A DNA stretch of 64,000 nt from Streptomyces sp. LBL (GTDB lineage: Bacteria > Actinomycetota > Actinomycetes > Streptomycetales > Streptomycetaceae): NCBI RefSeq assembly GCF_029893585.1, contig NZ_JARXYX010000002.1:186001-250000 (forward strand), written 5' to 3'. Made by a program: the position numbers and the translations under genes. Shown one piece after another: positions 14,317-29,700 of this stretch. The notes beneath the pieces were generated by a model. It had not been told where the DNA came from. It ran no database searches and was given only the letters and a program-made list of their open reading frames with translations. Numbering within the stretch: position 1 is the first letter of the stretch; every line of letters begins with the position of its first letter.

Positions 14317-15432
14317 TCAGATACCGAGCCGGTCCAACAGCCGCTCGTGGTACACCGCCGGGCCGCCGAAGAGCAGTTGCGAGGACTTGGCCCGCCGGAA
14401 GTACAGGTGGGCCGGATGCTCCCAGGTGAAGCCGATACCGCCGTGGACCTGGATGTTCTCCATGGCGGCGACCAGGTACGCCCGTGAGCAGCAGGCGTGT
14501 GCCACGGCCGCGGCGACCGGGAACTCCGGGGAGCCCTCGTCGGCCAGCCGCGCCGCCTCACGGGAGGAGGCCTCGGCCAGTTCCACCTGGACGAGCATGT
14601 CGGCGCACTTGTGCTTGACCGCCTGGAAGGAGCCGATCGGCCGGCCGAACTGATGACGGACCCGGGCGTATTCCGTGCTCGTCTCCAGACACCGGCGGGC
14701 CCCTCCCGCCTGCTCGGCGGCCAGCCCCACCGAGGCGACGTCCAGGACCTTGGCCATGATGCGCCCGCCCGCCCCCTGCGCGCCGACGAGCGTCGCGGGC
14801 ACGGCGTCGAACGTCAGGCGGGCGATGGCCCGGGTGGCGTCCAGCGTCTCCATCGCATCCGCCGCGAGTCCCGTGGCTTCCCGGTCCACGGCGAAGAGCG
14901 TGGGGCCGGCGACGGTACGGGCGACGACGAGGATCAGATCCGCCGTCGTACCGTCGACGACGAAGCACTTGCGGCCTCGCACCATCCAGCCGTCGTCGCC
15001 GTCCGGCACGGCCCGCGCGGAGACCATGGCGGGGTCCCAGGAGCCGCTGTCCTCGGCGACGGCGAGGGTGGCCGTGGTCCGCCCGGACGCGATGCCGGGG
15101 AGGTGGCGCGCGCACGCCTCCTGGTCTCCGGAAGCCAGCAGCGCCTGGGCCGCCAGGACGACGGTGGCGAAGAAGGGCGCGCAGAACAGCGCACGGCCCA
15201 TCTCCTCCAGGACCACGCCGAGTTCGACCAGCCCGAAGCCGTCACCGCCGTACTCCTCCGGGACCGCCAGGCCCGGCAGCCGAAGTTGGTCGGCCGCCTG
15301 GGCCCACACCGCCGGGTCGAAGCGCGGCTCGCTCTCCATGAGCTTGCGTACGGCCTCCTCGGGCGACTTGGCGTCCAGGAACTCCCGTACGGACGCCCGC
15401 AGTTCCCGCAGTTCGCGCTCGTCGGCGGTCAC
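14317..15432 (-). CDS. Acyl-CoA dehydrogenase, atypical subunit of a probable heteromeric pair
   Basis: A 371-residue acyl-CoA dehydrogenase homologue. It has FGLVELGVVLEEMGRALFCAPFF, VRHQFGRPIGSFQAVKHKCADMLV and MENIQVHGGIGFTWEHPAHLYFRR. In place of the usual GT(S/E)EI tail it ends KSSQLLFGGPAVYHERLLDRLGI, so the catalytic YEGT position is not preserved, and the ALTEP-type loop is also altered (AVAEDSGSWDP). Its GTG start overlaps the stop of the upstream dehydrogenase by four bases. Adjacent unequal acyl-CoA dehydrogenases form alpha2beta2 enzymes in actinobacterial steroid side-chain degradation; the same is inferred here. Confidence 0.88.
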   Translation of the reverse strand: MTADERELRELRASVREFLDAKSPEEAVRKLMESEPRFDPAVWAQAADQLRLPGLAVPEEYGGDGFGLVELGVVLEEMGRALFCAPFFATVVLAAQALLASGDQEACARHLPGIASGRTTATLAVAEDSGSWDPAMVSARAVPDGDDGWMVRGRKCFVVDGTTADLILVVARTVAGPTLFAVDREATGLAADAMETLDATRAIARLTFDAVPATLVGAQGAGGRIMAKVLDVASVGLAAEQAGGARRCLETSTEYARVRHQFGRPIGSFQAVKHKCADMLVQVELAEASSREAARLADEGSPEFPVAAAVAHACCSRAYLVAAMENIQVHGGIGFTWEHPAHLYFRRAKSSQLLFGGPAVYHERLLDRLGI

Positions 15433-16673
15433 GACCGCACCTCCTTGGCAGCGGGGGTCACCGGTTCCTTGGGCAGGCCGAGGACGCGTTCCGCGAGGAT
15501 GTTCTTCATGATCTCCTCGGTGCCACCGAGGATGCGCAACGCCGGGGTGGCCAGGAGCAGTTCGGTCCAGGCGTACGTGCCCCACCGGCCGGTGTCGGCG
15601 ATGAGCCGGGGGCCGAGCACGTCGGACACGAAGTGCGCCGCGCGGGTCAGGTTCTGGCCGTACATCAGCTTCGAGACGGACATCTCGGGCCCCGGCGCGA
15701 TGCCGCCGCGCACCTTGCGCAGGGCACGGGCGTTGAGGTGCTCGGTGGCCAGGACGTCGACCAGGAGCTCTCCGAGGCGGGCGCGCAGGGCACGGTCGTC
15801 CCAGGTCCAGGTGGCCCGCATGAGTGCCGAGAGGTGGTCCGGGGACAGGGCCGCGGCCACCGGGCCCGCGCCCTCGCTGCCGACCGTCGCGCGCTCGTTC
15901 ATCAGGGTGGTCAGGGCGACCGTCCAGCCGCCGTCGACCTCGCCCAGGCGGTGGTCGTCGGGGACGCGGACGTCGGTGAGGAAGACCTCGTTGAAGTCCG
16001 CGCCGCCGGTCATCTGCCGCAGCGGCCGGACCTCGACGCCGGGGGTGTCCATGGGGACCAGGAAGGCCGTGATGCCGCGGTGCTTGGGGGCGTCGGGATT
16101 CGTCCGGGTCAGGGCGAGGCCGATCTGGCTGTGCTGGGCGACCGACGTCCACACCTTCTGCCCGTTGAGCACCCAGTCCTCGCCGTCGCGGACGGCTCGG
16201 GTGGCCACGCTCGCCAGGTCGGATCCCGCGCCGGGTTCGCTGAACAGCTGGCAGGCGATGGCGTCCCCGCGGTACATCGCCGGCAGCCAGCGCTCCTTGA
16301 GGTGGGGCTGGGCGTGGGCCAGGATCGTCGGCCCGATCATGCCCAGGCCGATCACGCCGAGCACACCGGTGTCGGCGACGTCGTACTCCGACTCGACGGC
16401 GTCGTAGAGCAGGTCGTGGACAGGGGTCAGGCCCCGGCCGCCGTACTCCCGCGGCCCCGTGATCCAGCCGAAGCCGTGCTCGTGGCGGATCCGCTGCCAC
16501 TCCCGGGCCCGTCGCACGAACTCCCGCTCCTCCTCGGGCGGGAGGCTGCTGAAGTACGCCATCGAGTCGTCGCCCTCGCCCCAGGTGAGGGCGGTGCGGT
16601 CGGGGGCCTTCGCCGCGTGCGCGTCGAGGAAGCGGCGCGCTTCGGCGGCGAAGTCCTGCATGTCCTGGTCCAT
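15429..16673 (-). CDS. Acyl-CoA dehydrogenase, partner subunit of the pair
   Basis: A 414-residue acyl-CoA dehydrogenase of the FadE type. Landmarks are FGWITGPREYGGRGLTPVHDLLYDAVE, FSEPGAGSDLASVATRAVRDGEDW, LNGQKVWTSVAQHSQIGLALTRTNPDAPKHRGITAF and ALRILGGTEEIMKNILAERVLGLP. The extra length over the partner lies mostly in the N-terminal helical part. ATG 16673 has AGGGA upstream. The gene sits between the thiolase-like gene (19 bases upstream) and the atypical subunit, with GTGA overlap to the latter. The two together probably make one enzyme that dehydrogenates a bulky acyl-CoA. Confidence 0.9.
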   Translation of the reverse strand: MDQDMQDFAAEARRFLDAHAAKAPDRTALTWGEGDDSMAYFSSLPPEEEREFVRRAREWQRIRHEHGFGWITGPREYGGRGLTPVHDLLYDAVESEYDVADTGVLGVIGLGMIGPTILAHAQPHLKERWLPAMYRGDAIACQLFSEPGAGSDLASVATRAVRDGEDWVLNGQKVWTSVAQHSQIGLALTRTNPDAPKHRGITAFLVPMDTPGVEVRPLRQMTGGADFNEVFLTDVRVPDDHRLGEVDGGWTVALTTLMNERATVGSEGAGPVAAALSPDHLSALMRATWTWDDRALRARLGELLVDVLATEHLNARALRKVRGGIAPGPEMSVSKLMYGQNLTRAAHFVSDVLGPRLIADTGRWGTYAWTELLLATPALRILGGTEEIMKNILAERVLGLPKEPVTPAAKEVRS

Positions 16674-16691
16674 AACGGGTTCCCTGTGCTG

Positions 16692-17840
16692 TCAGGTCGA
16701 CAGGATCGTCACCGCCGACGCGCCGGGCGCGCCGTACAGGTGGGTGTAGCCGACGCGAGGCGTGCCGGGCATCTGTCGGGGGCCCGCCGTACCGCGCAGT
16801 TGGAGCACGATCTCGTGGATCTGGCGCAGTCCGGACGCGCCGATCGGTTCCCCGTTGCCGAGCAGCCCGCCGTCGGTGTTGACCGGGAGCCGGCCGCCGA
16901 TCTCGGTGGCGCCCTCGGCGATGAGGCGCTCCTGCTCACCGTCCTTGCAGAGGCCGTTCTCCGCCATGTGGATGATCTCCGACCCCGCGTCGGTGTCCTG
17001 GAGTTGGGCGACGTCGACGTCCTCGGGGCCGATGCCCGCGTGTTCGTACGCCGCCCGGGAGGCGTCCACGCTCGGGCTGTCCACGGGTTCCCCGAGCGGG
17101 AACGACGGGCTCTGCACCTCGAAGGCGCCGAGCCTGCGGCTGCGCAGGGCGGTGGCCCGGACGCGTACGGGGGTGGACGTGTACTTGTGGGCCTGGTCGG
17201 CACGGCACATCACGACGGCCGCGGCGCCCTCGTTCGGGCCGCAGTACATGAACTGGCGGAGGGGGTGGTTGAGAACAGGGGAGGCGAGAACCTCCTCCGC
17301 CGACAAGGGCGTACGGCGCCAGGCCTTCTCGTTCCCGGCCGCGTTGCGGAAGTTCTTCGACGCCACGCGGGCGAGCGTCTCGTGGGAGATGCCGTGGTCG
17401 TGCATATAGCGGTTGATCTTCATGCCGAAGAAGTGGGTGGTGAGGAAGAGCCCGGTCTGCCCGTACCAGGAGGGGATGCCCGCCACGGACGGATCGGCGG
17501 CGAACGCGCCACGCGGGTGCTTGTCCAGGCCGATCGCGATGGTCAGGTCGTGCTCGCCGGTCTCGATGGCGCGGGCGGCCAGCGCCACCGCCGTACCGGC
17601 CGTGGCGCAGCCGTTGAACACACCGCGCAGGGGTATGCCGGTCAGGCCGAGCCGGCCGACGATCGCGTCCGGGTTGGCGACCTCGTAGCTGCCGATGTAA
17701 CCACCCTGGATCTGCGGCCAGTTCACGCCCGCGTCGGCGAGCGCCAGCCGTACCGCGTCCGCGCCCATGTCCAGCGCGGGCTTGCCGGGGAACCGGCCGA
17801 AGGGGTGGAGGCCCACCCCGATGATGACGGCCTCGGTCAT
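16692..17840 (-). CDS. Thiolase-like protein (lipid-transfer/aldolase type)
   Basis: A 382-residue thiolase-superfamily protein. The N-terminal Cys region is preserved as GVFNGCATAGTAVALAARAIETG near residue 72. The normal C-terminal catalytic His motif GHPxGxSG reads GEPIGASG here, and the CxG motif near the end is YGAPGASA without Cys. Loss of both fits the Ltp-like proteins that work with DUF35 partners as retro-aldolases rather than true thiolases. It overlaps the upstream DUF35 gene by four bases, the usual sign of a physical complex. Its substrate is probably a beta-hydroxyacyl-CoA with a branched or ring-attached carbon; that is inference. Confidence 0.88.
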   Translation of the reverse strand: MTEAVIIGVGLHPFGRFPGKPALDMGADAVRLALADAGVNWPQIQGGYIGSYEVANPDAIVGRLGLTGIPLRGVFNGCATAGTAVALAARAIETGEHDLTIAIGLDKHPRGAFAADPSVAGIPSWYGQTGLFLTTHFFGMKINRYMHDHGISHETLARVASKNFRNAAGNEKAWRRTPLSAEEVLASPVLNHPLRQFMYCGPNEGAAAVVMCRADQAHKYTSTPVRVRATALRSRRLGAFEVQSPSFPLGEPVDSPSVDASRAAYEHAGIGPEDVDVAQLQDTDAGSEIIHMAENGLCKDGEQERLIAEGATEIGGRLPVNTDGGLLGNGEPIGASGLRQIHEIVLQLRGTAGPRQMPGTPRVGYTHLYGAPGASAVTILST

Positions 17841-18331
17841 GACGCCTCCTCCTCGACCTGGACAGGCTCTTCGACCGGGGCGGACTCCTCGACCTGCACG
17901 GACTCCTCGACCGGGGCGAACGCGAAGGTGAGGACCTCGGTGCCGTCGTCCTCCACGGTGTAGGGCACGAGGGTCAGCCGCATCTCCTGCCCGATCCGCA
18001 GCTTCACGGGGTCGGGTTCGGTCAGGCGGGCCTCGACCAGCAGTTCACCGGGGAGTTCGACGTATCCGACGGCGTACGGCTCGAAGGCCTCGGGGCCGTC
18101 GTACGGCGGGGACGGCGGGCGGAAGTCCTGGGTCGTGTACGTCCACAGCGTGCCGCGGTCCGACAGGAGCCGTTCCTTCGATTCCGTGCTCGCGCACCGG
18201 ACGCAGTCCGGGGCGGACGGGAAGCTCACCAGGCCGCACTCCGTGCACTGGGAGCCGATCAGCCGAAGGGGGCCCGTGGTGGGCGGCCAGGTGAACAGGC
18301 CGTCGGCGACCGGCCGTCGGGGTGTCGTCAT
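17837..18331 (-). CDS. DUF35 zinc-ribbon/OB-fold protein, partner of the thiolase-like protein
   Basis: A 164-residue protein. A rubredoxin-like zinc ribbon is formed by C29-x2-C32 and C43-x2-C46, followed by an OB-fold with LWTYTTQDFRPPSPPYDGPEAFEPYAVGYVELPGELLVEARL, the DUF35 signature. DUF35 proteins bind acyl-CoA and assist thiolase-like enzymes. The C-terminal 25 residues are a low-complexity acidic tail of repeated PVEE and VQVEE units, encoded by a 36-bp tandem duplication. It starts one base after the SDR stop and ends inside the start of the thiolase-like gene. Confidence 0.9.
   Translation of the reverse strand: MTTPRRPVADGLFTWPPTTGPLRLIGSQCTECGLVSFPSAPDCVRCASTESKERLLSDRGTLWTYTTQDFRPPSPPYDGPEAFEPYAVGYVELPGELLVEARLTEPDPVKLRIGQEMRLTLVPYTVEDDGTEVLTFAFAPVEESVQVEESAPVEEPVQVEEEAS
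17850..17921 (-). repeat. 36-bp tandem duplication inside the DUF35 gene
   Basis: Two 36-base units, 17850-17885 and 17886-17921, differ at only a few positions. They encode the acidic Val-Glu-Glu tail of the DUF35 protein. The repeat length is a multiple of three, so the frame is kept. It looks like a recent in-frame expansion of a disordered tail. Confidence 0.8.
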
Positions 18332-18332
18332 G

Positions 18333-19244
18333 TCACGCCCCGTTCCGGTTGCCGAGGGCGTCGGCGTTCACAGCCGCCTTGGCCACCAGGTTCGGGACGA
18401 CCGAGGACAGCTCCTCGGGTGTCCACCGGGACTCGGCGCTCGCGCCGGGGCCGTTGACCCAGCCCTCCAGTACGGTGATCTGGTTGCCGACGACGCCGAA
18501 GACCCGGCCGGTGACCTCGCGCGAGGCGGCCGAGCCCAGCCACACCACGAGCGGCGAGATGGCCTCGGGGGTGAGGTCCTGGGCTTCGGCGGCCCGCTTC
18601 ATCATCTCGATGTCCTCGGTGAGCCGGGTGAGCGCGGTCGGCGCGATGGCGTTCACGGTCACGCCGTAGCGGGCGAGTTCGGCCGCGGCGATGATCGTGA
18701 GGCCGGCGATGCCGGCCTTGGCGGAGCCGTAGTTGGACTGGCCGGGGTTGCCGAAGATGCCGGACGGGGAGGTCGTGTTGATCACCCGGGCGTCGTTGTC
18801 GTGACCGGACTTGGCGCGCTCGCGCCAGTACGCGGCCGCGTGGTGCAGGGTGGCGAAACTGCCCTTGAGGTGGACGGCGATCACGCTGTCCCAGTCCTGC
18901 TCGGTCATCGACACGATCATCCGGTCCCGCAGGATGCCGGCGTTGTTGACCAGCACGTCCAGGCCGCCATAGGTGTCCACCGCCTGCCGGACGAGCCGGC
19001 CGGCGCCCTCCCAAGTGGCGATGTCGTCCGTGTTGGCCGTCGCCTCGCCACCGGCGGCGACGATCTCGTCGACCACGGTCTGGGCAGGCCCGGCCGAGGC
19101 TCCCGCCCCGTCCCGCGAGCCGCCCAGGTCGTTGACGACGACCTTCGCGCCCTGCGCGGCGAACGCCAGGGCATGCGCCCGGCCGATCCCGTTGCCGGCG
19201 CCGGTGACGACCACGACCCGGCCGTCGGCCACTCCTGCAGACAT
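18333..19244 (-). CDS. SDR family 3-hydroxyacyl-CoA dehydrogenase-like protein
   Basis: A 303-residue SDR closely related to the one at 6111-7022. Shared landmarks are TGAGNGIGRAH, VVVNDLGGSRDGAGAS, NNAGILRDRMIVSM, the NTTSPSGIFG Ser region and NYGSAKAGIAGL (Y-x3-K). It probably oxidises a 3-hydroxyacyl-CoA with NAD. ATG 19244 follows AAGGAG. In the operon it lies between the ligase-like gene and DUF35. Two such paralogues in one cluster may handle successive rounds or different stereoisomers. Confidence 0.9.
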   Translation of the reverse strand: MSAGVADGRVVVVTGAGNGIGRAHALAFAAQGAKVVVNDLGGSRDGAGASAGPAQTVVDEIVAAGGEATANTDDIATWEGAGRLVRQAVDTYGGLDVLVNNAGILRDRMIVSMTEQDWDSVIAVHLKGSFATLHHAAAYWRERAKSGHDNDARVINTTSPSGIFGNPGQSNYGSAKAGIAGLTIIAAAELARYGVTVNAIAPTALTRLTEDIEMMKRAAEAQDLTPEAISPLVVWLGSAASREVTGRVFGVVGNQITVLEGWVNGPGASAESRWTPEELSSVVPNLVAKAAVNADALGNRNGA

Positions 19245-19246
19245 GC

Positions 19247-19978
19247 TCAACTCCTTGATGGCTGAGGCCGGTCGGCTTCGGCGAACAGAACCCGCGGGTC
19301 CTCGCTGCCGCAGCCGCACCGGCCGGTGATGGCGCGGCCCGCGATGCCGAGCGGTGTCTCGGGGAGCGGCGAGGTGCGGGCCTCCCCCGCCGCCAGGAAC
19401 AGTTGCCCGTCCCGCTCGCCGACCCGCCACTCGGCGGCGTTGACGTGCGCGCCGGCCCGCTCGGGGCACTCCAGTGCGAGGGCCGGTCCCACGGCCGAGA
19501 TCAGGGCGGCGGACACACCCACCCCGCGCAGCAGCGGTACGGCTGCGGGCCTGGCCAGCACCACGGACGTGGAGCGGAACATCTCACCGAGGTCCGCCGT
19601 CCCGGCGAGTCCCTCCAGGGTCTGCGCCGACAGGCCGATCACCGCGTGCGGGTTCAGTTCGCGATGGAAGACCGCGGTGCGGCGGTGGTCCCAGCCCATC
19701 GCCTCGGCGATGCCGTACGTCACCTTCAGCGCGCTCAGGGCGCCGATCACCGCGCGACCCCAGAAGCCCTCGAAACCGGACGCGGTCAGCAGAGCCCGCT
19801 GCCCGGCGGCCAGGCCGTGCTCCCGCAGCCGTGCGGTGACCCAGTCGGTGTCGCGGGCGAGTTCCGCCCAGGTCAGTTCCGTCTTCCGCATGCCGTCGGC
19901 CGCGGGGAAGCGTACGAGGTAGGCGAGTTCGGGGCGGTCGAGTTCCCTGGCCCGGGCCAGGGTGTCGGCGCGGGCCAT
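19247..19978 (-). CDS. Adenylate-forming-enzyme-like protein without a P-loop
   Basis: A 243-residue protein. The N-terminal part reads like the front end of an AMP-binding enzyme (ELTWAELARDTDWVTARLREHGLAAGQRALLTASGFEGFWGRA), and the C-terminal part has TGRCGCGSEDPR, reminiscent of the cysteine motif of PaaK-type ligases. The Ser/Thr/Gly-rich ATP-binding loop and the adenylation core residues are absent. It overlaps the stop of the full PaaK-like ligase by four bases, so the two are made together. I infer a non-catalytic partner or regulator of that ligase; the function is not known. Confidence 0.7.
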   Translation of the reverse strand: MARADTLARARELDRPELAYLVRFPAADGMRKTELTWAELARDTDWVTARLREHGLAAGQRALLTASGFEGFWGRAVIGALSALKVTYGIAEAMGWDHRRTAVFHRELNPHAVIGLSAQTLEGLAGTADLGEMFRSTSVVLARPAAVPLLRGVGVSAALISAVGPALALECPERAGAHVNAAEWRVGERDGQLFLAAGEARTSPLPETPLGIAGRAITGRCGCGSEDPRVLFAEADRPQPSRS

Positions 19979-21300
19979 CAGCGCTTCACCACCCGGGGGA
20001 ACTTGGCGACGCTGGTCATGGTCTTCAACAGGTCCTCCTCGGTGCGCATGTCGAGCACCGGCTTGACCCCGGTCCGCTCGCGCACGGCCTCGCTCAGGCG
20101 CCCGGCCAGGGCATCGACGTCCGCGGTGAGATGGGGGTCGTAGCCGACGCGCAGCCGCAGTTCGTCGACCTCGCGCCGGTCCCGGACGATCTGGAAGACC
20201 CCCGCGACGGTCTCCGGCTGGTCCTCCACCGCCTGCCAGATGTCCCGCAGGACCACGGAACGCCCCTGGACCAGGGTCTCGTCGCCGCGTCGTCCGGCGA
20301 CCCACATCCGGGCGTGGGTACGGCCGCAGCCGCAGGTGTCGCGGGAGAGGCGGACGAGGTCCTCGCTGCGGTAACGGATCAGCGGCGCGGCCCGGTTGTC
20401 CAGGTCGGTGGCGACGAGTTCGCCGAGGTCGCTCTCCGGGACGTCCTGCCAGCCGTGCTCGTCGACCTCGACGCACTCGGCGAAGACGGTGTCCTCCCAC
20501 AGGTGGAAGCCGTCGTGCTCACGGCACTCCCAGGCGGTGCCGGTGTCGGCGGCGCTGGTGTACTCGTAGACGTCGATGCCCCAGTCGTCGCGGATCCGCT
20601 CACGCATCTTCCGGCTGAGGGGCTGGCCGGCGCAGGAGGCGCCCTTGAGGGAGGAGAACGCCTCCTTCAGATCCGTCTGCTCGGCCAGGTGCTCCAGCTC
20701 GACCATCTGCGGGTACATCATCTGCAGATAGGCGGGGCGGTAGGTGCGCAGGGCCTCGACGACCTCGTGCATCTTCCCGAGCCAGGTGTCCACCTCGATG
20801 ACCACCGCGCCGAGGGCCTGGTAGCCGGGGTCCATGAGGTTGCGGAAGGTGCCGGGCGGGCTCAGCACCCGGTCCCCGGGCCTGAGGCCCAGCTCCCACA
20901 GGTCCCGCACCTGCGCGGTCACCAGGGGTGGTGCGTCCTGCCAGATCTCGGCGAAGAACTCCGGGTCGCCGGTGGTGCCCGAACTGGAGGAAACCGAGGT
21001 CAGCTCGTCGACCGGGACGCAGAGCAGACCGCCGAAGGGGTCGCCCGTGCGGGCCCGGTGGGCGCGCACCATGTCCTTGGTGATGAACGGCACCCGGGCC
21101 CGGAAGTCCTCCAGGGACCGGATGTCGCGCGGATGCACCCCGTGCTCGTCCCAGAGCTCACGGTAGAAGGCAGAGTTGCCGTAGGCGTGCCCGACGAGCT
21201 CCAGGATCCGTTCCTCCTGCCGCGCGCGCAGCTGCTCGCGGGGCATGGTCTCCACCTGGGGCTCGAAGTACCTGTCAGCGGTGTCCCGGTCACCGACCAT
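19978..21300 (-). CDS. PaaK-like acyl/aryl-CoA ligase
   Basis: A 440-residue ligase related to phenylacetate-CoA ligase. The ATP loop reads SVSSSSGTTGDPEFF, the adenylation motif is YEYTSAADTG, the hinge Asp motif is LIRYRSEDLVRLSRDTCGCGRTH, and the C-terminal domain ends with KFPRVVKR, which includes the probable catalytic Lys. It would activate an aromatic or alicyclic acid to its CoA ester with ATP. The open frame starts at 21336, but ATG 21300 has GAGGAGG four bases upstream. It is the first gene of the leftward operon that runs to 14317 and so probably defines the entry substrate. Confidence 0.88.
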   Translation of the reverse strand: MVGDRDTADRYFEPQVETMPREQLRARQEERILELVGHAYGNSAFYRELWDEHGVHPRDIRSLEDFRARVPFITKDMVRAHRARTGDPFGGLLCVPVDELTSVSSSSGTTGDPEFFAEIWQDAPPLVTAQVRDLWELGLRPGDRVLSPPGTFRNLMDPGYQALGAVVIEVDTWLGKMHEVVEALRTYRPAYLQMMYPQMVELEHLAEQTDLKEAFSSLKGASCAGQPLSRKMRERIRDDWGIDVYEYTSAADTGTAWECREHDGFHLWEDTVFAECVEVDEHGWQDVPESDLGELVATDLDNRAAPLIRYRSEDLVRLSRDTCGCGRTHARMWVAGRRGDETLVQGRSVVLRDIWQAVEDQPETVAGVFQIVRDRREVDELRLRVGYDPHLTADVDALAGRLSEAVRERTGVKPVLDMRTEEDLLKTMTSVAKFPRVVKR

Positions 21301-21339
21301 GGCGCCTCCTCGCGGCTCAGTGCCCAGATCTTCCAACTA

Positions 21340-21455: not shown

Positions 21456-22235
21456 GTGAAGATCGTTGTCTGCGTGAAGCACGTGCCCGACGCCACGGCG
21501 GACCGCACCTTCACCGAGGACGGCACCACCGACCGGGCGTCGGTCGACTCACTGCTGTCCGAGCTCGACGAGTACGCGGTCGAGCAGGCCCTGCGGATCG
21601 CGGAGTCGGGCGTCGAGGCCGAGATCAGCTACCTCACCGTCGGCCCCGACGACGCGCGCGACGCCCTGCGCAAGGCGCTGGCCATGGGCGGCGACTCGGC
21701 GGTCCATGTCAGCGACGACGACATCGAGGGCAGCGACGCGTTCGGCACGTCGCTCGTGCTGGCCAGGGCGATCGAGCGGCACGGCTTCGACCTCGTGCTG
21801 TGCGGGATGGCCTCGACGGACGGCACCATGGGCGTCGTACCGGCGCTGCTGGCCGAGCGGCTCGGCGTCCCCGCCGTCACCCACCTCGAAGACCTGGCGG
21901 TCGAGGACGGAGCCGTGACCGGCCGCCGCGAGGGTGACGGCGCGACGGTGCGGATCCAGGGCACCCTGCCGGCCGTCGTCTCGGTGACCGACCGCTCCGG
22001 TGACGCCCGCTACCCCTCCTTCAAGGGGATCATGGCCGCGAAGAAGAAGCCGATGGAGACCCTCGATCTCGCCGACCTCGGGATCGAGCCCGCGCAGGTC
22101 GGTCCGGCCGGCGCCCGGTCGGCCGTGGACACCGCGACCCGGCGCCCGCCGCGCACCAAGGGCGAGATCGTCACCGACGAGGGAGCGGGCGGCGCCGGAC
22201 TGGCCGCGTTCCTGACCACCAAGAAGTTCATCTGA
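21456..22235 (+). CDS. etfB: Electron transfer flavoprotein, beta subunit
   Basis: A 259-residue EtfB. It begins KIVVCVKHVPDATADRTF and has the AMP/ADP-binding region CGMASTDGTMGVVPALLAERLGVPAVTHLEDL and the C-terminal FKGIMAAKKKPMETLDLADLGIE typical of the family. It accepts electrons from the acyl-CoA dehydrogenases together with EtfA. The GTG start follows GGAGGG. The etfA gene follows 62 bases later. No ETF:quinone oxidoreductase is in the window, so delivery to the respiratory chain uses a gene elsewhere. Confidence 0.95.
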   Translation: MKIVVCVKHVPDATADRTFTEDGTTDRASVDSLLSELDEYAVEQALRIAESGVEAEISYLTVGPDDARDALRKALAMGGDSAVHVSDDDIEGSDAFGTSLVLARAIERHGFDLVLCGMASTDGTMGVVPALLAERLGVPAVTHLEDLAVEDGAVTGRREGDGATVRIQGTLPAVVSVTDRSGDARYPSFKGIMAAKKKPMETLDLADLGIEPAQVGPAGARSAVDTATRRPPRTKGEIVTDEGAGGAGLAAFLTTKKFI

Positions 22236-22297: not shown

Positions 22298-23260
22298 GTG
22301 GCCGAGATCCTCGTCCTCGTCGACCACGTCGACGGTGCCGTACGCAAGCCGACCCTCGAACTGCTCACCCTGGCCCGCCGGTTGGGCGAGCCCTCGGCCG
22401 TCTTCCTGGGGCCGGGCGTGGACGCCGCGACCGCGGTTCTCGGCGGGTACGGCGCCCGGAAGGTCTATGTCGTGGACACCTCGGAGATCGACGAGCACCT
22501 CGTCACCCCGGCCGTCGACGCCCTCACGCAGATCGCCGAGCGCACCGGTCCGGCGGCGATCCTGCTGCCGTCCGGGCCGGACGGCAAGGAGACCGCCGCA
22601 CGGGTCGCGCTCCGGCTCGACTCCGGACTGATCACCGACGCCGTCGACGTCACCGCCGGACCGGACGGACCGGTCACCGAGCAGGCGGTGTTCGCGGCGA
22701 CGTACCAGGTCAAAGCGCATGTCACCCGGGGCGTGCCGGTGATCACGGTCAAGCCGAACGCCGTCGCACCCGAGCCCGCTCCCGCCGCCCCCGTCGTCGA
22801 GAAGCAGGACATCGTCTTCGGCCCGGCCTCCGCCGCCGTCCGGATCCTGTCCCGCACGCCTCGCGAGCGCGGCGACCGTCCCGAGCTGACCGAGGCCGAC
22901 ATCGTGGTCTCCGGCGGCCGCGGCGTGAACGGGGCGGAGAACTTCGCCCTCATCGAGCGGGTCGCCGACGCGCTGGGCGCTGCCGTCGGGGCATCCCGTG
23001 CCGCCGTGGACGCGGGCTGGTACCCGCACAGCCACCAGGTCGGCCAGACCGGCACCCAGGTCTCCCCGCAGCTCTACCTGGCCGCCGGTATCTCCGGGGC
23101 GATCCAGCACCGGGCGGGGATGCAGACGTCCAAGACGATCGTGGCCGTCAACAAGGACGCCGACGCACCGATCTTCGAGCTGGCCGACCACGGCGTGGTC
23201 GGTGACCTCTTCGCGGTACTGCCGCAGTTGGTGGACGAGATCGAGCGGCGTCGGAGCTGA
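22298..23260 (+). CDS. etfA: Electron transfer flavoprotein, alpha subunit
   Basis: A 320-residue EtfA that carries the redox FAD. The C-terminal FAD motif is complete: SHQVGQTGTQVSPQLYLAAGISGAIQHRAGMQTSKTIVAVNKDADAPIFELADHGVVGDLF. The GTG start has AAGGAG nine bases upstream. It forms an operon with etfB. A dedicated etfBA pair inside a catabolic cluster suggests strong demand for acyl-CoA dehydrogenase electrons. Confidence 0.95.
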   Translation: MAEILVLVDHVDGAVRKPTLELLTLARRLGEPSAVFLGPGVDAATAVLGGYGARKVYVVDTSEIDEHLVTPAVDALTQIAERTGPAAILLPSGPDGKETAARVALRLDSGLITDAVDVTAGPDGPVTEQAVFAATYQVKAHVTRGVPVITVKPNAVAPEPAPAAPVVEKQDIVFGPASAAVRILSRTPRERGDRPELTEADIVVSGGRGVNGAENFALIERVADALGAAVGASRAAVDAGWYPHSHQVGQTGTQVSPQLYLAAGISGAIQHRAGMQTSKTIVAVNKDADAPIFELADHGVVGDLFAVLPQLVDEIERRRS

Positions 23261-23307: not shown

Positions 23308-23340
23308 TACAACTAAAATCGCTAACTGATTGCATCCATT
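23308..23340. promoter_or_regulatory. Operator-like A/T-rich element upstream of the amidohydrolase operon
   Basis: The sequence AATCGCTAACTGATT at 23317-23331 is an inverted repeat (AATC and GATT) around the GCTAAC core at 23321-23326. The core is the complement of the GTTAGC seen at 1935, 29690 and, with one change, two other promoters. It lies 30 bases upstream of the amidohydrolase start. Confidence 0.5.
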
Positions 23341-23356
23341 GACTCGAAGGGGTGTC

Positions 23357-24436
23357 ATGACGAAGATCTGGGTCAACTCCGGGGACTCCCATGTGATGGA
23401 ACCCGCCGACGTGTGGACCGAGAGGCTGCCCGCACGGCTCGGCGCCAGGGCGCCCCGCAGCGAACGCGGCGAGAAGTACGAGATGCTCTACATCGACGGC
23501 GAACGCATCGACCGCCAGCTCGGCGACTTCATGGACGCCATGCGTCCGCCGGGCGCCTGGGACCTGAAGGTCCGCCTCAAGGACCTCGACCAGGAGGGCG
23601 TGTGGTCCCAGCTGGCCTTCCCCTCCATGGGGTTCTGGCTGGTGTCGATCACCGACCGGGAACTCGCCCGGGAGACCGTCCGGGCCTGGAACGACTGGGC
23701 CCACGAGGAGATCCTCCGTAAGAACAAGCGGGTCATCACCACCGCCTGCGTCTCGACGGCCGACATCGACGACGCCGTCGCCGAGGTGGAGCGGGTGGCG
23801 GAGCTGGGCTTCAAGGCGATCTTCCTGCCGTGTTCCACCCGGGAGGGCGAGGAGTACGCGCTCGACCGCTGGGAGCCGCTGTGGACGGCGGTCGAGCGGG
23901 CCGGTCTGGTGCTCGGTTTCCACATCGGCACGGGCGGTCAGAACGTCGTGTTCCGCGGACCCGGCGGCGCGGTCGTCAACTACATGGAGACGACCTACCC
24001 GGGCATGCGGGTGGTGTCCCACATGGTCGCGGGCGGTGCGCTGGACCGGCACCCGGACCTCAGGATCCTCATCGCGGAGGGCGGCGCGGGCTGGGTGCCC
24101 GCCATCGGCGACCGGATGGACGAGGCCTACCGTCAGCACGGGATGTTCGTCCGGCCGAAGCTGAGCCGGCTGCCCAGCGAGATCATCCGGCAGCAGGTGT
24201 ACGCCTCCTTCCAGCACGACAAGAGCTCGGTGGAGATCGTCGAGTCGACCGGCTACCGCAACGTGATGTGGGGCGACGACTACCCCCACCTGGAAGGGAC
24301 CTACGGTCACACCCAGTCCACGCTGCGGGAGCTGTTCGACGGCGTGTCCGACGACATCCGCGACCGCGTCACGCGCGGCACCTTCAACGAGCTCTTCGGC
24401 CTGCCCGAGCAGACTCCCCGGGAGGCGGCCGTCTGA
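23357..24436 (+). CDS. Amidohydrolase family (PF04909-like) metal-dependent hydrolase
   Basis: A 359-residue TIM-barrel hydrolase/decarboxylase of the amidohydrolase-2 type. It begins KIWVNSGDSHVMEPADVW, where Asp and His are the first metal ligands, and later has FHIGTGGQNVVF and WGDDYPHLEGTYGHTQ, with a conserved Asp. Members include ring-opening hydrolases and decarboxylases of aromatic degradation. ATG 23357 follows AAGGGG. It is the first gene of a rightward operon with the GNAT/acyl-CoA synthetase fusion, luciferase-like oxidoreductase and thioesterase. It could open a ring made by the neighbouring monooxygenase; that is inference. Confidence 0.87.
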   Translation: MTKIWVNSGDSHVMEPADVWTERLPARLGARAPRSERGEKYEMLYIDGERIDRQLGDFMDAMRPPGAWDLKVRLKDLDQEGVWSQLAFPSMGFWLVSITDRELARETVRAWNDWAHEEILRKNKRVITTACVSTADIDDAVAEVERVAELGFKAIFLPCSTREGEEYALDRWEPLWTAVERAGLVLGFHIGTGGQNVVFRGPGGAVVNYMETTYPGMRVVSHMVAGGALDRHPDLRILIAEGGAGWVPAIGDRMDEAYRQHGMFVRPKLSRLPSEIIRQQVYASFQHDKSSVEIVESTGYRNVMWGDDYPHLEGTYGHTQSTLRELFDGVSDDIRDRVTRGTFNELFGLPEQTPREAAV

Positions 24437-24462: not shown

Positions 24463-26880
24463 GTGACCACTCCCCCGTATCCCGAGGACCTGGAACGGCC
24501 CGGGCTCGTCAGGACCGGACGGTCGACCTTCGTCCGGCCCGTCCGGCCCGAGGACGCCGACCGTCTGGTCGCGTTCGTCGGCGGCCTGTCCCGGGCCACC
24601 CTGGCCTACCGCTCGCTCGGCCCGGTGGTGCGCGCCCGTGACGACGTGATCAGGCGCGGCGCGCACGTGGACTACCTGAACGAGCTGGCACTCGTCGCCC
24701 TGGCCGGGGACGAGATAGCCGGTCTGGTGCGCTATGTCCGCGACCCCGAGGAGCCGGAGCACGCCGAGGTCACCTTCACCATCCGGGACGACCACCAGAG
24801 CGAGGGATTCGGCCGGCTGCTCCTGGAGGACATCGCCGCCGCCGCCCGCGCGCGGGGCATCCGGGTGCTGGAGGCCGATGTCCTCGCCGACAACACCCGG
24901 ATGATCAACGTGTTCCTCGGATCCGGCTACCGGATCGAGAGCGGGCCGCCCGGCCAGATCATCCACTTCGAGATCGCCATCGACCCGCAGGCCCAGGCAG
25001 TGGCCCGGGCCGAGCGCCGCGAGCACACGGCGGTGCGGCGCTCACTCAGGCCGTTGCTCGAACCGCGCTCGGTCGCCGTGATCGGCGCCAACCGCGATCC
25101 GCTGACGATCGGCCACGAGATCGTGGCCAACCTGCTGCGGGGCGGCTTCGGCGGCAGTGTGTTCCCTGTCAACCCGCGGGCCGAGCGGATCGCCGGGGTG
25201 CGGGCGTACGCGAACCTCCGGGACCTGCCCGAGCCGCCCGACCTGGCCCTGGTGGCCGTACGGGCCGCGGCGGTGCCCGAGGTCGTACGGGAGTGCGCGG
25301 ACGCCGGCGTCAAGGCGGTGGTCGTCGTCTCCACCGGCTTCGGGGAGACCGGAGCCGAGGGGCGGGCCACCGAGCTGGAGCTGGCCCGGTTCGCCCGTGC
25401 CTCCGGTATGCGGCTGGTCGGCCCGAACTGCATGGGCGTGGTCAACACGACCCACGCGGCGCGGCTGGCCGCGACCTTCTCGCCCGCCCTGCCGACGCCG
25501 GGCCGGGTGGCGATGTCCAGCCAGTCCGGGCCGCTGGGGCTCGCGGTGCTCGACTTCGCCCGGCGGCTGCGGCTCGGCTTCTCCGGATTCGTGTCGGTGG
25601 GGCACGCCGTGGACGTGTCCACCGACGAACTGCTCCAGTGGTGGGAGGAGGACCCCGGGACCTCGGTGATCCTCCTGCACGTCGAGACCTTCGGCGATCC
25701 GCGCCGGTTCGCCCGCGTCGCCCGCCGGATCGCCCCGCGCAAACCGATCGTCGCGGTCCACCCGGGCCACACGGACTCGGCGGTGAGCTCGCTGTTCGCC
25801 CAGTCCGGCGTGATCCGCACCCGCAGTCTCCAGGAACTCTTCGACGTCGCCCTGCTCCTCGCCCACCAGCCTCCCCCGCCCGGCAACCGGATCGCCGTCA
25901 TCACCAACGCGGGCGGTCCGGCCGCACTGACGGTGGGGGCGTGCGCGGCCAGCGGTCTGTGCGTCCCCGCGCTCGGTGAGCGAACGCGACAGACGCTGCG
26001 TGCGGCTCTGGCGCCGCGTGCGGAGGTCGCCAACCCGGTCGACCTGACCCCCATGGCCACCGCCGCGCACTACCGGCGCGCCCTGGACACCGTCCTGGCC
26101 GACGACGACATCGACGCGGTCGTCGTCCTGTTCATGCCGCCGCTGGCGGACAAGCCCGACGAGGTCGCGTCGGCGATCCTCGACGCGGCAGCGGGCCGGC
26201 CCGACAAACCGGTGGTGGCCAGCTTCCTGGGCGGCGCGGGCGTCGCCGACCTCCTGCACCGGGGCGACCTGGTGGTGCCGACATACACGTTCCCCGAAGC
26301 GGCGGCCGTCTCGCTCGGGCAGGCGGCGGCCTACCAGGCGTGGCGCAGCACCCCGGCGGGCGTCGTGCCGGACCTCGCGGGGGTCGACGCCGAGCGCGCC
26401 CGAGCGCTGATCGCCGGCCACGCCCCCGGTCCGGTCCTCGCCGCGGTCGCCGCCGAACTGCTGGACGCGTACGGAATCGCCGTACGGGACACCGAACCGG
26501 GCCGGGGCCCTGACGCGTTCCTCTCCGTCCGCGCCGACCCGGTCTTCGGCCCGGTGGTCGCCTTCGGGCTGACCGGGGACTACGCCGACCTCATGGCGGA
26601 CGTCGTGCACCGCGTCACCCCGCTCAGCGACCGCGACGCCCGGGAGATGGTCCGCTCACTGCGGGCGGCCCCGCTGCTGGACGGCCGGGTGGGCGGCCGG
26701 GGCGTGGATCTGGCGGCGCTGGAGGAGACCGTCCTGCGGATCTCGGCGATGGTCGAGGACCTGCCCGAGATCGAGGCGCTGGAACTGCGCCCGGTACGAC
26801 TGCTGCCGCCCGGGAACGGGGTGGCCGTCGCCCACGCGACGATCCGACTGGCCGACAACACAAAGGGAGGCCGCTCATGA
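24463..26880 (+). CDS. GNAT acetyltransferase fused to NDP-forming acyl-CoA synthetase-like domains (shortened ATP-grasp part)
   Basis: An 805-residue fusion. Residues about 20-175 are a GNAT domain (FVRPVRPEDADRLVAFV, FTIRDDHQSEGFGRLLLEDIAAAARARGI). From about 200 a CoA-binding Rossmann domain follows (PRSVAVIGANRDPLTIGHEIVANLL), then succinyl-CoA-ligase-like domains (MSSQSGPLGLAVLDFARR). The C-terminal ATP-grasp part jumps from LLDAYGIAVRDTEPGR almost directly to RADPVFGPVVAFGL. In full-length relatives roughly 100 residues with the ATP-binding Lys and HKSDxGG lie between. It may therefore not make acyl-CoA and could act as a CoA-sensing lysine acetyltransferase, as PatZ-type proteins do. 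GTG 24463 has only a weak ribosome site. It overlaps the next gene by four bases. Confidence 0.85.
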   Translation: MTTPPYPEDLERPGLVRTGRSTFVRPVRPEDADRLVAFVGGLSRATLAYRSLGPVVRARDDVIRRGAHVDYLNELALVALAGDEIAGLVRYVRDPEEPEHAEVTFTIRDDHQSEGFGRLLLEDIAAAARARGIRVLEADVLADNTRMINVFLGSGYRIESGPPGQIIHFEIAIDPQAQAVARAERREHTAVRRSLRPLLEPRSVAVIGANRDPLTIGHEIVANLLRGGFGGSVFPVNPRAERIAGVRAYANLRDLPEPPDLALVAVRAAAVPEVVRECADAGVKAVVVVSTGFGETGAEGRATELELARFARASGMRLVGPNCMGVVNTTHAARLAATFSPALPTPGRVAMSSQSGPLGLAVLDFARRLRLGFSGFVSVGHAVDVSTDELLQWWEEDPGTSVILLHVETFGDPRRFARVARRIAPRKPIVAVHPGHTDSAVSSLFAQSGVIRTRSLQELFDVALLLAHQPPPPGNRIAVITNAGGPAALTVGACAASGLCVPALGERTRQTLRAALAPRAEVANPVDLTPMATAAHYRRALDTVLADDDIDAVVVLFMPPLADKPDEVASAILDAAAGRPDKPVVASFLGGAGVADLLHRGDLVVPTYTFPEAAAVSLGQAAAYQAWRSTPAGVVPDLAGVDAERARALIAGHAPGPVLAAVAAELLDAYGIAVRDTEPGRGPDAFLSVRADPVFGPVVAFGLTGDYADLMADVVHRVTPLSDRDAREMVRSLRAAPLLDGRVGGRGVDLAALEETVLRISAMVEDLPEIEALELRPVRLLPPGNGVAVAHATIRLADNTKGGRS

Positions 26881-27851
26881 GAGTCGGCATCTACTTCGAC
26901 ATGCGCAACCCCCCGCCCTGGCAGCGGTCTTGGTCCCGGGTCTACGGGTTCGCCCTGGAGATGTGCGAGGAGGCGGACCGCCTCGGCCTCGACTCGGTGT
27001 GGTTCTCCGAGCACCACGGCTTCGAGGACGGCTATCTCCCCCAGCCGCTCACCATGGCCGCCGCGGCGGCCGCCCGCACCCGCCGGATACGCCTCGGCAC
27101 CGCCGTCATCCCCGCACCCCTGCACGCGGCCCCCGAGATCGCCGAACAGGCCGCGATCGTGGACATCATCAGCGCCGGCCGGCTGGACCTCGGTCTCGGC
27201 ACCGGTTACCGGGTGCCCGAGTACCGGCTGTACGGGGCCGACCTCGCCAAGCGCTACACCACGACCGACCAGCGGGTCCGGGATATCCGCGGCCTGTGGG
27301 ACGAAGCCCTGGTCACCCCCGGTCCGGTCCAGGATCCGCTGCCGATCTGGCTCGGCTACCAGGGCCCGCAGGGCGCCCGCCGGGCCGGCCGGCTCGGCAC
27401 GGGGCTGCTGTCGCTCAACCCGGCGCTGCTGACGCCGTACCGGGAAGGGCTCGCGGAGAGCGGGCACGACGTGTCGGCGGGCCGGATGCAGGGCTCGTTC
27501 ACCACGTTCGTCACCGAGGACCCGGAGGCCGACTGGCCGATGGTCCGCGGGCATCTGTCGTACCAGTGGGACAGCTACCGCCGCTACATGGTCGAGGGCA
27601 CCGACCGGCCCGCCCCCCGCCCCATCGATCCCGAGAAGTGGCGGGAGACGGGGCTGAGCGCGTCCGGCGTCGGCCAGTTCCTCTACGGCACCCCGCAGGA
27701 CACCGCCGACGCCATCAGGGCGTACGTGGCAGGGTTGCCGGTGGAAGGGGTGTTCCTGTGGGCTTCGCTGGCCGGGATGCCTGAGGAGGCGGTGGCCCGC
27801 CAGGTACAGCTCATCGCCGGGAAGCTGCGTCCGCTGCTTGCCGACGTCTGA
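26877..27851 (+). CDS. Luciferase-like (LLM) flavin or F420-dependent oxidoreductase
   Basis: A 324-residue bacterial-luciferase-fold enzyme. It begins MRVGIYFDMRNPPPW and has LGLDSVWFSEHHGFEDGYLPQPL, RIRLGTAVIPAPLHAAPEIAEQAAIVDIISAGRLDLGLGTGYRVPEY, and a C-terminal substrate domain. Such enzymes are either FMNH2-dependent monooxygenases or F420-dependent dehydrogenases; sequence alone does not decide. The ATG overlaps the stop of the GNAT fusion gene. In this operon it could hydroxylate or Baeyer-Villiger-oxidise the substrate before hydrolysis. Confidence 0.88.
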   Translation: MRVGIYFDMRNPPPWQRSWSRVYGFALEMCEEADRLGLDSVWFSEHHGFEDGYLPQPLTMAAAAAARTRRIRLGTAVIPAPLHAAPEIAEQAAIVDIISAGRLDLGLGTGYRVPEYRLYGADLAKRYTTTDQRVRDIRGLWDEALVTPGPVQDPLPIWLGYQGPQGARRAGRLGTGLLSLNPALLTPYREGLAESGHDVSAGRMQGSFTTFVTEDPEADWPMVRGHLSYQWDSYRRYMVEGTDRPAPRPIDPEKWRETGLSASGVGQFLYGTPQDTADAIRAYVAGLPVEGVFLWASLAGMPEEAVARQVQLIAGKLRPLLADV

Positions 27852-27867
27852 CACGAGGAGTCACAGC

Positions 27868-28416
27868 ATGTCCACGACGTCACCGACGGGTCCCTGGGCC
27901 GGGGCGGACTTCCAGGAGCCGCCCCGGACCCCTGGCGGGGTGGCCCTGTGCGGGGCGTGTCGCGCCGCCGGCTCCTGCCGGCTGGGGGTGGAGCACGAGC
28001 GGCTCGACGAGGACGGGACGGCGCGGTTCGAGCTGTCCTGCCCGCGGGACCAGGAGGGCGGTCCCGATGTCGCGCACGGCGGCTGGACGGCGGCCGTCCT
28101 GGACGACTGTCTCGGCCATCTGCCACTGTTGCACCGGGTGTTGAGCGTCACGGCGGAACTGAGCGTGAGCTTCGTGAAGCCGGTGCCGGTGCAGCGGCCG
28201 TTGGAGGTCCGCGCCTGGGTGGAGAAGCGGGAGGGCAGGCGCTGGTACATCGCGGGCGAGATGGTACTGCTGCCGACCCGGGCCGTGCTGGCCCGGGCAT
28301 CCGGGATCTGGGTGCTCCGGGACCAGGGCCACTTCGCCCGGCACAAGGAGTGGCTGGCCGAACAGGACACGGGCGACGGGCCTCAGCAGCACCTCAGTCC
28401 GGGAGGGGCTCAGTAG
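27868..28416 (+). CDS. PaaI-like hotdog thioesterase
   Basis: A 182-residue hotdog-fold protein. The motif GGPDVAHGGWTAAVLDDCLGHL is the HGG-helix signature of PaaI-like acyl-CoA thioesterases. A short Cys-rich segment (LCGACRAAGSCRLGVEH) precedes it near residue 30. It would release CoA from stalled intermediates. The C-terminus QQHLSPGGAQ lies inside a 27-bp tandem repeat, and the stop codon TAG is a CAG to TAG variant of that repeat, so the protein was probably longer. ATG 27868 follows GAGGAG at a longer than usual distance. Confidence 0.87.
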   Translation: MSTTSPTGPWAGADFQEPPRTPGGVALCGACRAAGSCRLGVEHERLDEDGTARFELSCPRDQEGGPDVAHGGWTAAVLDDCLGHLPLLHRVLSVTAELSVSFVKPVPVQRPLEVRAWVEKREGRRWYIAGEMVLLPTRAVLARASGIWVLRDQGHFARHKEWLAEQDTGDGPQQHLSPGGAQ

Positions 28417-28509
28417 CACCTGAACCCGGCAGGGCCTCAGCAGCACCTGAACCCGACAGCGGCCCAGCAGCACCTGAACCCGGCAGGGCCTCAGTAGGAC
28501 CTGAGCCCC
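28384..28509. repeat. 27-bp tandem repeat spanning the ends of two convergent genes
   Basis: Units of 27 bases begin at 28384, 28411, 28438 and 28465, with a partial fifth copy from 28492. The consensus begins CAGCAGCACCTGAACCCG and ends AGGGCCT. Copy 1 encodes the thioesterase C-terminus, copy 2 holds its stop, and the partial copy 5 encodes the last residues and stop of the convergent acyl-CoA dehydrogenase. In the thioesterase frame the array would read as repeats of QQHLNPAGP. Confidence 0.92.
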
Positions 28510-29642
28510 ATGCTGCGGGCTATGCCGTTGCGCTGGATCTGGCTGGTGCCCCCGGAGATCGTGGCCACGATCGACTCCCGGTAGCGGAAGCTCATCACGC
28601 TCTCGGTGGAGAAGCCGTGCCCGGCGCAGACCTGCATCCCGAGCCGGGCGGCGGCCACATAGGTCTCCGACCCCTTCAGCTTCGCCATCGAGCCCTCGCG
28701 CGTGCAGGGCTTGCCCTGGGCGAGCAGCCAGGCGGCGCGGTGGGCGAGCAGCCGGGCGGAGTCGATCTCGGTCTGCAGATCGGCCATGGCGTGGGCGAGG
28801 GCCTGGAAGGTGCCGATCGGACGGCCGAAGGCGTGCCGAGTGCGGGCGTACTCCAGCATCTCGTCCAGCGTGGCCTGCGCCGCGCCCAGATACCCGCCGG
28901 TGATGATCACCTTCTCCAGTTCGATGTTGGAGAGCATCACCTTCCAGCCCTCGTCACGCGGGCCGACGAGGTTCTCCTTGGGCACCAGGGCGTCATTGAA
29001 GAAGACCTCGTTGGTGCCCAGGATGTGCCGGGCCAGCGTCGGTGTCCGGCGCACCTCGACGCCCTCCGTCGACGGATCGACCAGCAGCAGGCTGATGCCG
29101 CCGTGCTTGGGCTCGCGGGGCCCTGTGCGCACGTAGGTGGCGATGGTCGTGTCGGGCAGACCGCCGCCCGTGCACCAGGCCTTCTGGCCACGGACCAGGA
29201 AGTGGTCCCCGTGGTCCTCGGCGGTGGTGCGCAGTGCCGCGGCGTCGGACCCGCTGTCCGGCTCGCTGAGGCCGACGGCGAGCCGGTGCCGGCCCGTCAT
29301 GACCTGCTCACGGATGAAGTCGCGCTGCGCCTCGCTGCCCCACCGGAACACCGTGATCCCGGGGATGAGCACCCCGATGTAGCACATGGCGACGTCGAAG
29401 CTGGCCCGCCCCAACTCCTCGGCGATCAGGATGAGCTCCAGCGGCCCGCCGCCGTCGCCGCCCTCCTCCTCGCCGAACGGGAGGGAGAACCACCCCAGCT
29501 CGGCCATTCCGCGAAACAGCTCGGGCGGTACGACACCCTGCTCGTCCCACTGCTTGGCCTTCTCGGCCGGGCACACGTCGGCGACGAACTGCCGTGCCGT
29601 CGCGCGCAACAGGTCCTGCTCGTCGGTCAGCCCGAAGTCCAC
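28491..29642 (-). CDS. Acyl-CoA dehydrogenase
   Basis: A 383-residue acyl-CoA dehydrogenase. Landmarks are DFGLTDEQDLLRATARQFVADVCP, SLPFGEEEGGDGGGPLELILIAEELGRASFD, LSEPDSGSDAAALRTTAEDHGDHFLVRGQKAWCTGG and MSFRYRESIVATISGGTSQIQRNGIARSMGL. The residue before GT in the C-terminal motif is Gly, not Glu. The frame is open from 29672, but the GTG at 29642 has GAGGAG five bases upstream. Its 3' end was built from the 27-bp repeat array. It has its own A/T-rich operator-like promoter and is divergent from the LacI regulator. Confidence 0.9.
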   Translation of the reverse strand: MDFGLTDEQDLLRATARQFVADVCPAEKAKQWDEQGVVPPELFRGMAELGWFSLPFGEEEGGDGGGPLELILIAEELGRASFDVAMCYIGVLIPGITVFRWGSEAQRDFIREQVMTGRHRLAVGLSEPDSGSDAAALRTTAEDHGDHFLVRGQKAWCTGGGLPDTTIATYVRTGPREPKHGGISLLLVDPSTEGVEVRRTPTLARHILGTNEVFFNDALVPKENLVGPRDEGWKVMLSNIELEKVIITGGYLGAAQATLDEMLEYARTRHAFGRPIGTFQALAHAMADLQTEIDSARLLAHRAAWLLAQGKPCTREGSMAKLKGSETYVAAARLGMQVCAGHGFSTESVMSFRYRESIVATISGGTSQIQRNGIARSMGLRSY

Positions 29643-29661
29643 GGCCACTCCTCGCCAGACT

Positions 29662-29700
29662 GGTCTATTCATCTATCTAATTATTCTATGTTAGCGGATA
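29662..29700. promoter_or_regulatory. Operator-like A/T-rich element upstream of the acyl-CoA dehydrogenase
   Basis: The inverted repeat CTATGTTAGCGGATAG at 29686-29701 is centred on GTTAGC (29690-29695). The wider stretch CTATC...GATAG also mirrors. It shares the core with the elements at 1935 and 23321 and is followed 30 bases later by a different, AACGTT-centred LacI-type site for the divergent gene. Confidence 0.5.

Follow-up and report, generated by a model that had tools for sequence, protein, structure and literature searches.

The gene at positions 24463-26880 (plus strand) of the window, the 64,000-nucleotide stretch of Streptomyces sp. LBL that was analysed, encodes a fusion of a GNAT domain with a pseudo-acyl-CoA-synthetase part that lacks its ATP-grasp lid. 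On balance it is probably a type II (SlPatA-like) protein acetyltransferase in lidless form, and would act as a ligase-dead, acyl-CoA-sensing lysine acyltransferase for the pathway of the surrounding gene cluster, freed from nucleotide control. As the sequence-only reading of this DNA had stated, the frame is intact, a single open frame of 805 amino acids with a GTG start and no internal stop, and the fusion of GNAT and acyl-CoA synthetase that it had described was borne out by Pfam matches to GNAT, CoA_binding_2, Succ_CoA_lig, Ligase_CoA_2 and, partially, ATP-grasp_5. The genes are tightly packed: this one begins 26 bases after the preceding gene, and its stop codon runs into the start codon of the following gene in an ATGA overlap.

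The GNAT domain (aa 5-173; 24475..24981, +), delimited by Pfam and by structure alignment, superposes on the GNAT of S. lividans Pat (4u5y) over 165 residues with a Z score of 25.4 and an rmsd of 1.6. Glu102 (24766..24768, +), which we take to be the general base, is invariant in the 11 lidless sequences of alignment A1 and aligns with Glu123 of the 4nxy chain. The residues Q112-S-E-G115-F-G117 fit R/Q-x-x-G-x-G/A, described as the CoA phosphate motif of GNAT acetyltransferases (PMC8556138). An N-terminal GNAT, found here by both Pfam and structure alignment, is characteristic of the type II class, whose definitions in the available parts of two papers do not name the lid (PMC8556138, PMC6456759). 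In the synthetase-like part, Pfam places subdomain 1, the CoA-binding Rossmann fold (aa 202-328; 25066..25446, +), subdomain 2, Succ_CoA_lig (aa 346-465; 25498..25857, +), and subdomain 5, Ligase-CoA (aa 478-619; 25894..26319, +), so that all three CoA-binding subdomains of the ACD architecture are present. ATP-grasp subdomain 4 persists as its first helix and following residues (aa 660-673; 26440..26481, +), seen in the model, and as the remainder (aa 691-796; 26533..26850, +), identified by Pfam, dN/dS and structure alignment, with an excision scar (aa 674-690; 26482..26532, +; alignment and dN/dS) at the site of the missing subdomain 3, the lid. The predicted model of the protein is confident (mean pLDDT 87.6) and aligns with 8wzu_A over 598 residues (Z 46.5, rmsd 2.5) and with 1wr2 over 154 residues (Z 23.3, rmsd 1.8); there was no closer lidless solved structure among the structure-search matches listed.

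The jump from LLDAYGIAV to DPVFGPVV lies where the sequence-only reading had located it, although its estimate of about 100 missing residues was too high, the alignment with the full-length fusion L139 giving about 70 (70 columns). The same span comprises 51 residues in the window protein versus 119-125 in most full-length fusions and 114 in one. ATP-grasp_5 matches the window protein at profile positions 98-221 of 221 only, and three other proteins of the same genome at 2-221, 2-217 and 7-221. The missing stretch equals residues 701-770 of L139, where the model (mean pLDDT 89.6) has a lid of helices at 704-714 and 743-760 and strands at 718-723, 736-740 and 763-768, and by the L139 alignment it corresponds to about residues 507-581 of Nmar_0206 (own count). 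The ATP-grasp lid of Nmar_0206 (8WZU), its subdomain 3, is reported as residues 503-577, inserted in subdomain 4 and not visible in the electron density; in that enzyme phosphate is first accepted by H535, and the swinging loop carries H256 (PMC11494057). H535 falls inside this lid and, since the lid coincides with the missing stretch, the window protein is without the lid, its Lys and its His. What had been described as excision of the ATP-grasp core is accordingly narrower, in that the lid is gone but subdomain 4 remains in both model and alignment; the reported absence of the ATP-contact Lys and of the His motif was confirmed by alignment.

The swinging phospho-His loop (about aa 433-443; 25759..25791, +) is also shortened in the alignment, and its His is not a conserved one: where the window protein reads GHT, close relatives have GHA, GHE, GTA or GPA. 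The window protein thus has neither the lid with Lys and phospho-acceptor His nor the swinging loop with phospho-His that belong to the ACD architecture. The proposed loss of ligase activity is strongly supported by the absence of these elements and is near certain, but it is not special to this gene. A Pfam scan of the window protein found no intact ATP-grasp domain elsewhere in it. Supply of the lid by a separate small protein was rejected, as an ATP-grasp_5 search of the genome found no stand-alone lid above the cut-off; full matches were limited to three other fusions or synthetases and one weak match taken for SucC, and six weak partial matches fell below the cut-off. In L077, L015, L080 and L043, either the scar or the shortened His loop is occupied by low-complexity repeats.

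The window gene and its subdomain 4 remnant are under purifying selection. Against six relatives of the same genus (L009, L011, L014, L039, L040 and L074), Nei-Gojobori dN/dS was 0.13-0.19 for the whole gene, 0.03-0.12 for the GNAT domain, 0.10-0.20 for the subdomain 4 remnant and 0.16-0.62 for the scar, the loosest part in each, and against the more distant L058 the corresponding values were 0.28, 0.38, 0.20 and 0.53. Across all seven comparisons with the window gene, the scar had the highest dN/dS of the six domains compared. An assembly artefact, frameshift or pseudogene is ruled out by this selection, by the further lidless sequences described below and by the distinctness of all 37 lidless sequences at 99.5% identity (36 at 98%). 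There were no ambiguous N bases in the six lidless loci checked.

Lid loss was then placed among homologues in an alignment of 146 fusions, from which four partial rows (L031, L042, L064 and L133) were dropped. With lidless defined as 27-67 residues between YGI and DPxFG, and full-length as 92-104, the 142 kept rows comprised 37 lidless, 103 full-length and two odd sequences, in a set biased towards the lidless form because it was supplied by searches with lidless queries; the named loci are the best 80 matches listed of a scan. The gap is therefore common to 36 of the other 141 kept sequences, and the full-length rows are likewise mostly distinct (101 of 103 at 99.5% identity, 98 at 98%). Of the odd rows, L016 is the PatA orthologue of genome G168, in which a separate partial deletion keeps the HLRHRPDLGG piece of the lid, and L085, from a Methylomirabilota MAG, appears frameshifted within the lid. 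The lidless sequences come from Streptomyces and its kin, Actinomadura, a Pseudonocardiales MAG, an Actinomycetes MAG, Geothrix and a Binataceae MAG; all eight Actinomadura loci listed are lidless, in a list biased to such forms.

Dereplication at 78% gave a tree of 71 rows, 12 of them lidless, built by a quick method with the junction columns left out. On this tree eight changes of lid state are needed, at least seven of them forced by starred branches. The long row L121 was rejected as the cause of this count, as seven changes are needed and seven forced without it, and a single origin with all lidless rows held together was rejected at p-AU 1.06e-37. Change counts alone cannot separate loss from regain, and loss was the preferred reading since a module, once deleted, is not easily recovered. 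Among these related fusions, the lid therefore seems to have been lost about seven or eight separate times.

Within Streptomyces, the lidless gene comes in addition to a full-length PatA and is a paralogue of it. In each of the 12 Streptomyces genomes examined that have a lidless fusion, there is also a full-length one with 84-100% identity to L002, a separate gene of the window genome that keeps its lid and is 43% identical to the window protein over aa 92-602; fusions of the L002 type were taken for the PatA orthologue. Genomes G542 and G280 have no fusion other than the lidless protein at E <= 1e-60.

What was removed with the lid can be approached through 58 full-length rows of the tree (L085 left out), in which the swinging-loop His was called by a simple pattern on the alignment and the rows are related, hence not independent cases. 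Of the 30 rows with a swinging-loop His, 29 have the lid Lys and 29 the lid His; the 28 rows without it have the lid Lys in 26 (Arg in the other two) and the lid His in 17; in these 28 the lid Lys ranks eighth of 84 lid columns by conservation. This may be read as decay of the acceptor His, with the nucleotide-contact Lys staying, once ligase chemistry is gone. Because the Lys is kept though the His decays, the lid may still have a job, perhaps nucleotide sensing, in which case the lidless proteins could no longer respond to nucleotide. That the events followed one strict order is doubtful, since three lidless proteins (L049, L102 and L123) retain the swinging-loop His, which also tells against the main reading. 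It is a tentative possibility that the lid of ligase-dead Pats is a nucleotide (energy) sensor, removed about seven or eight times to give acyltransferases responsive to acyl-CoA only, with the Streptomyces paralogue as a form reserved for one pathway, whose acyl-CoA ligase it would control by feedback. PMC8556138 describes the exact role of the large synthetase-like domain in Pat enzymes as not completely understood, and the pairs of lidless and full-length proteins in one genome offer a natural test of whether information on ATP reaches the acetyltransferase through the lid.

The same counts bear on a plainer account, in which the window protein is an ordinary PatA-type enzyme whose useless lid decayed, such losses happening now and then with regulation unaffected. 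The synthetase domains of type II enzymes are reported to lack activity (PMC8556138), the lid His survives in only those 17 of 28 rows, and the PatA orthologue L016 carries its own, different partial deletion, all as this account would predict. However, the retention of Lys or Arg in all 28 of these related rows suggests that the lid is constrained where it is kept, and the losses take the whole lid, with 33 residues or fewer left at the site in 31 of the 37 lidless rows; simple decay is thus judged rather unlikely.

The fusion gene lies within a set of acyl-CoA genes. On the minus strand are two acyl-CoA dehydrogenases (14317..15417, start uncertain, and 15429..16673), a thiolase-like protein (16692..17840), a ChsH2-type OB-fold and zinc ribbon protein (DUF35; 17837..18331), an SDR oxidoreductase (18333..19241, start uncertain), a conserved ORF here labelled 'lig2' (19247..20005, start uncertain, no Pfam or NCBIfam match) and, beside it, a PaaK-like AMP-forming acyl-CoA ligase (19978..21336), the proposed target. 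The plus strand carries electron transfer flavoprotein beta (21456..22235) and alpha (22298..23260), an amidohydrolase_2 protein (23330..24436) and, downstream of the fusion, the luciferase-like monooxygenase with the ATGA overlap (26877..27851) and a hotdog thioesterase (27838..28416), followed on the minus strand by another acyl-CoA dehydrogenase (28491..29672). The ChsH2 match was computed for the OB-fold and zinc ribbon protein. The set at 14317-19241 presumably resembles the side-chain beta-oxidation clusters of steroid degraders.

At all 16 Streptomyces loci read with flanks, the SDR, ChsH2-like, thiolase-like, PaaK-like, 'lig2', luciferase-like monooxygenase and thioesterase genes are present, and the PaaK-like ligase ends in an SVAKFPRVVK tail; the amidohydrolase gene is absent from two of these loci (L165 and L076) and the ETF genes from one (L168), and the fusion gene stays. 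Within the Streptomyces sample, the PaaK orthologue and the lidless fusion occur in the same eight of 199 genomes. The class sample has a PaaK orthologue in nine of 388 genomes, six of which carry the lidless form of the window clade; in G395 the fusion copy (L042) is truncated where the contig stops, and in G215 and G360 the PaaK relative is at 56-57%, the best Pat matches are weaker and there is no close relative of the lidless protein. The two genes share a contig at about 15 kb in G512, 48 kb in G303 and 19 kb in G663, and the link therefore outlives rearrangement. In G663, a 75% relative, the PaaK orthologue (G663:C1:1483245-1484564) has one TGA inside its frame and may be broken.

Taken with the domain evidence, these observations suggest the following mechanism. 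Without the lid Lys, the lid His and the full swinging His loop, the protein would take no phosphate from ATP and make no acyl-CoA. Its synthetase part would serve as an acyl-CoA sensor only, which switches the GNAT domain and no longer takes any input from nucleotide. Once the pathway acyl-CoA accumulates, the GNAT would acylate a lysine as feedback, the most likely target being the PaaK-like ligase of the same cluster. The CoA-ester sensing and lysine acylation that the sequence-only reading had proposed to be kept agree with a GNAT whose fold and motif are intact and with the retention of the CoA-binding subdomains; lysine acylation is likely, and the PaaK-like ligase is a plausible candidate target in keeping with its co-occurrence with the fusion. 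The cluster-bound form would then be a lysine acyltransferase tied to one pathway, not to general acetate metabolism. Against this main reading, the PaaK-like ligase falls below the curated NCBIfam cut-offs and has no Pfam match, the oxidoreductases, thiolase and thioesterase of the cluster are other possible targets, and co-occurrence in a cluster can reflect joint inheritance only; the PaaK relatives of G215 and G360 without a close lidless partner, and the distant, interrupted copy of G663, also count against it.

Two further accounts change the chemistry. Acylation by the GNAT of a small pathway amine or amino acid, and not of a protein lysine, accords with a cluster of acyl-CoA enzymes and an amidohydrolase, but is considered very unlikely, as the best GNAT matches are protein acetyltransferases (SlPat, PatZ and Rv0998) and the fusion architecture is that of Pat. 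It is highly improbable that the protein is an ATP-independent phosphotransacylase coupled to the GNAT, with subdomains 1, 2 and 5 running acyl-CoA + phosphate = acyl-phosphate + CoA, a coupling for which we know of no precedent. This half-reaction needs no ATP-grasp unit, and the window protein retains intact both power-helix motifs, SQSG and NAGG. An ADP-forming enzyme is reported with a sulfate, taken as a phosphate mimic, at its power helices (PMC11494057), which favours such a reaction; however, NAGG is lost in several other lidless proteins (NSDSLG, NSAALA). The main reading, of an acyl-CoA-sensing lysine acyltransferase, was preferred.

Compared with known systems, the window protein shares with S. 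lividans PatA (SlPatA) an N-terminal GNAT followed by an NDP-forming synthetase-like domain, and its GNAT has the same fold as that of SlPatA (4nxy/4u5y) at 36-37% identity, whereas the presumed PatA orthologue of the window genome, L002, keeps the lid that the window protein lacks. SlPatA is reported to acetylate its own Acs poorly, and SeAcs and SlAacS well (PMC4053389). E. coli PatZ and Salmonella Pat (type I), also described as ligase-dead acyl-CoA sensors (PMC8556138), have the same domains (9it0, 594 residues, Z 39.4), but their GNAT is C-terminal and their lid region is present, the L139 segment match on 9isq/9it0 covering the lid. Nmar_0206 (8wzu) has the subdomain order 1-2-5-4 in common with the window protein, but it has no GNAT and retains subdomain 3, H535 and H256 (PMC11494057). 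The Actinomadura and other distant lidless Pats have the same excision and GNAT fusion; they differ in being 40-45% identical to the window protein in the best segment and in occupying a separate position in the tree. There were no window-cluster homologues (E <= 1e-10) in the flanks read around these loci, some of them short, so the target must differ among loci, a further point against the main reading. Published type II GNATs already have a synthetase domain that binds acyl-CoA but is inactive (PMC8556138, PMC6456759), the catalytic His being described as missing (PMC8556138), so that sensing without ligase activity is the established condition in this family. Lid loss in Pat enzymes was not found in the titles and abstract openings of the open-licence literature among the matches listed. 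Within that scope, what is new beside these systems is the precise, repeated excision of the lid and the lidless paralogue bound to an acyl-CoA cluster.
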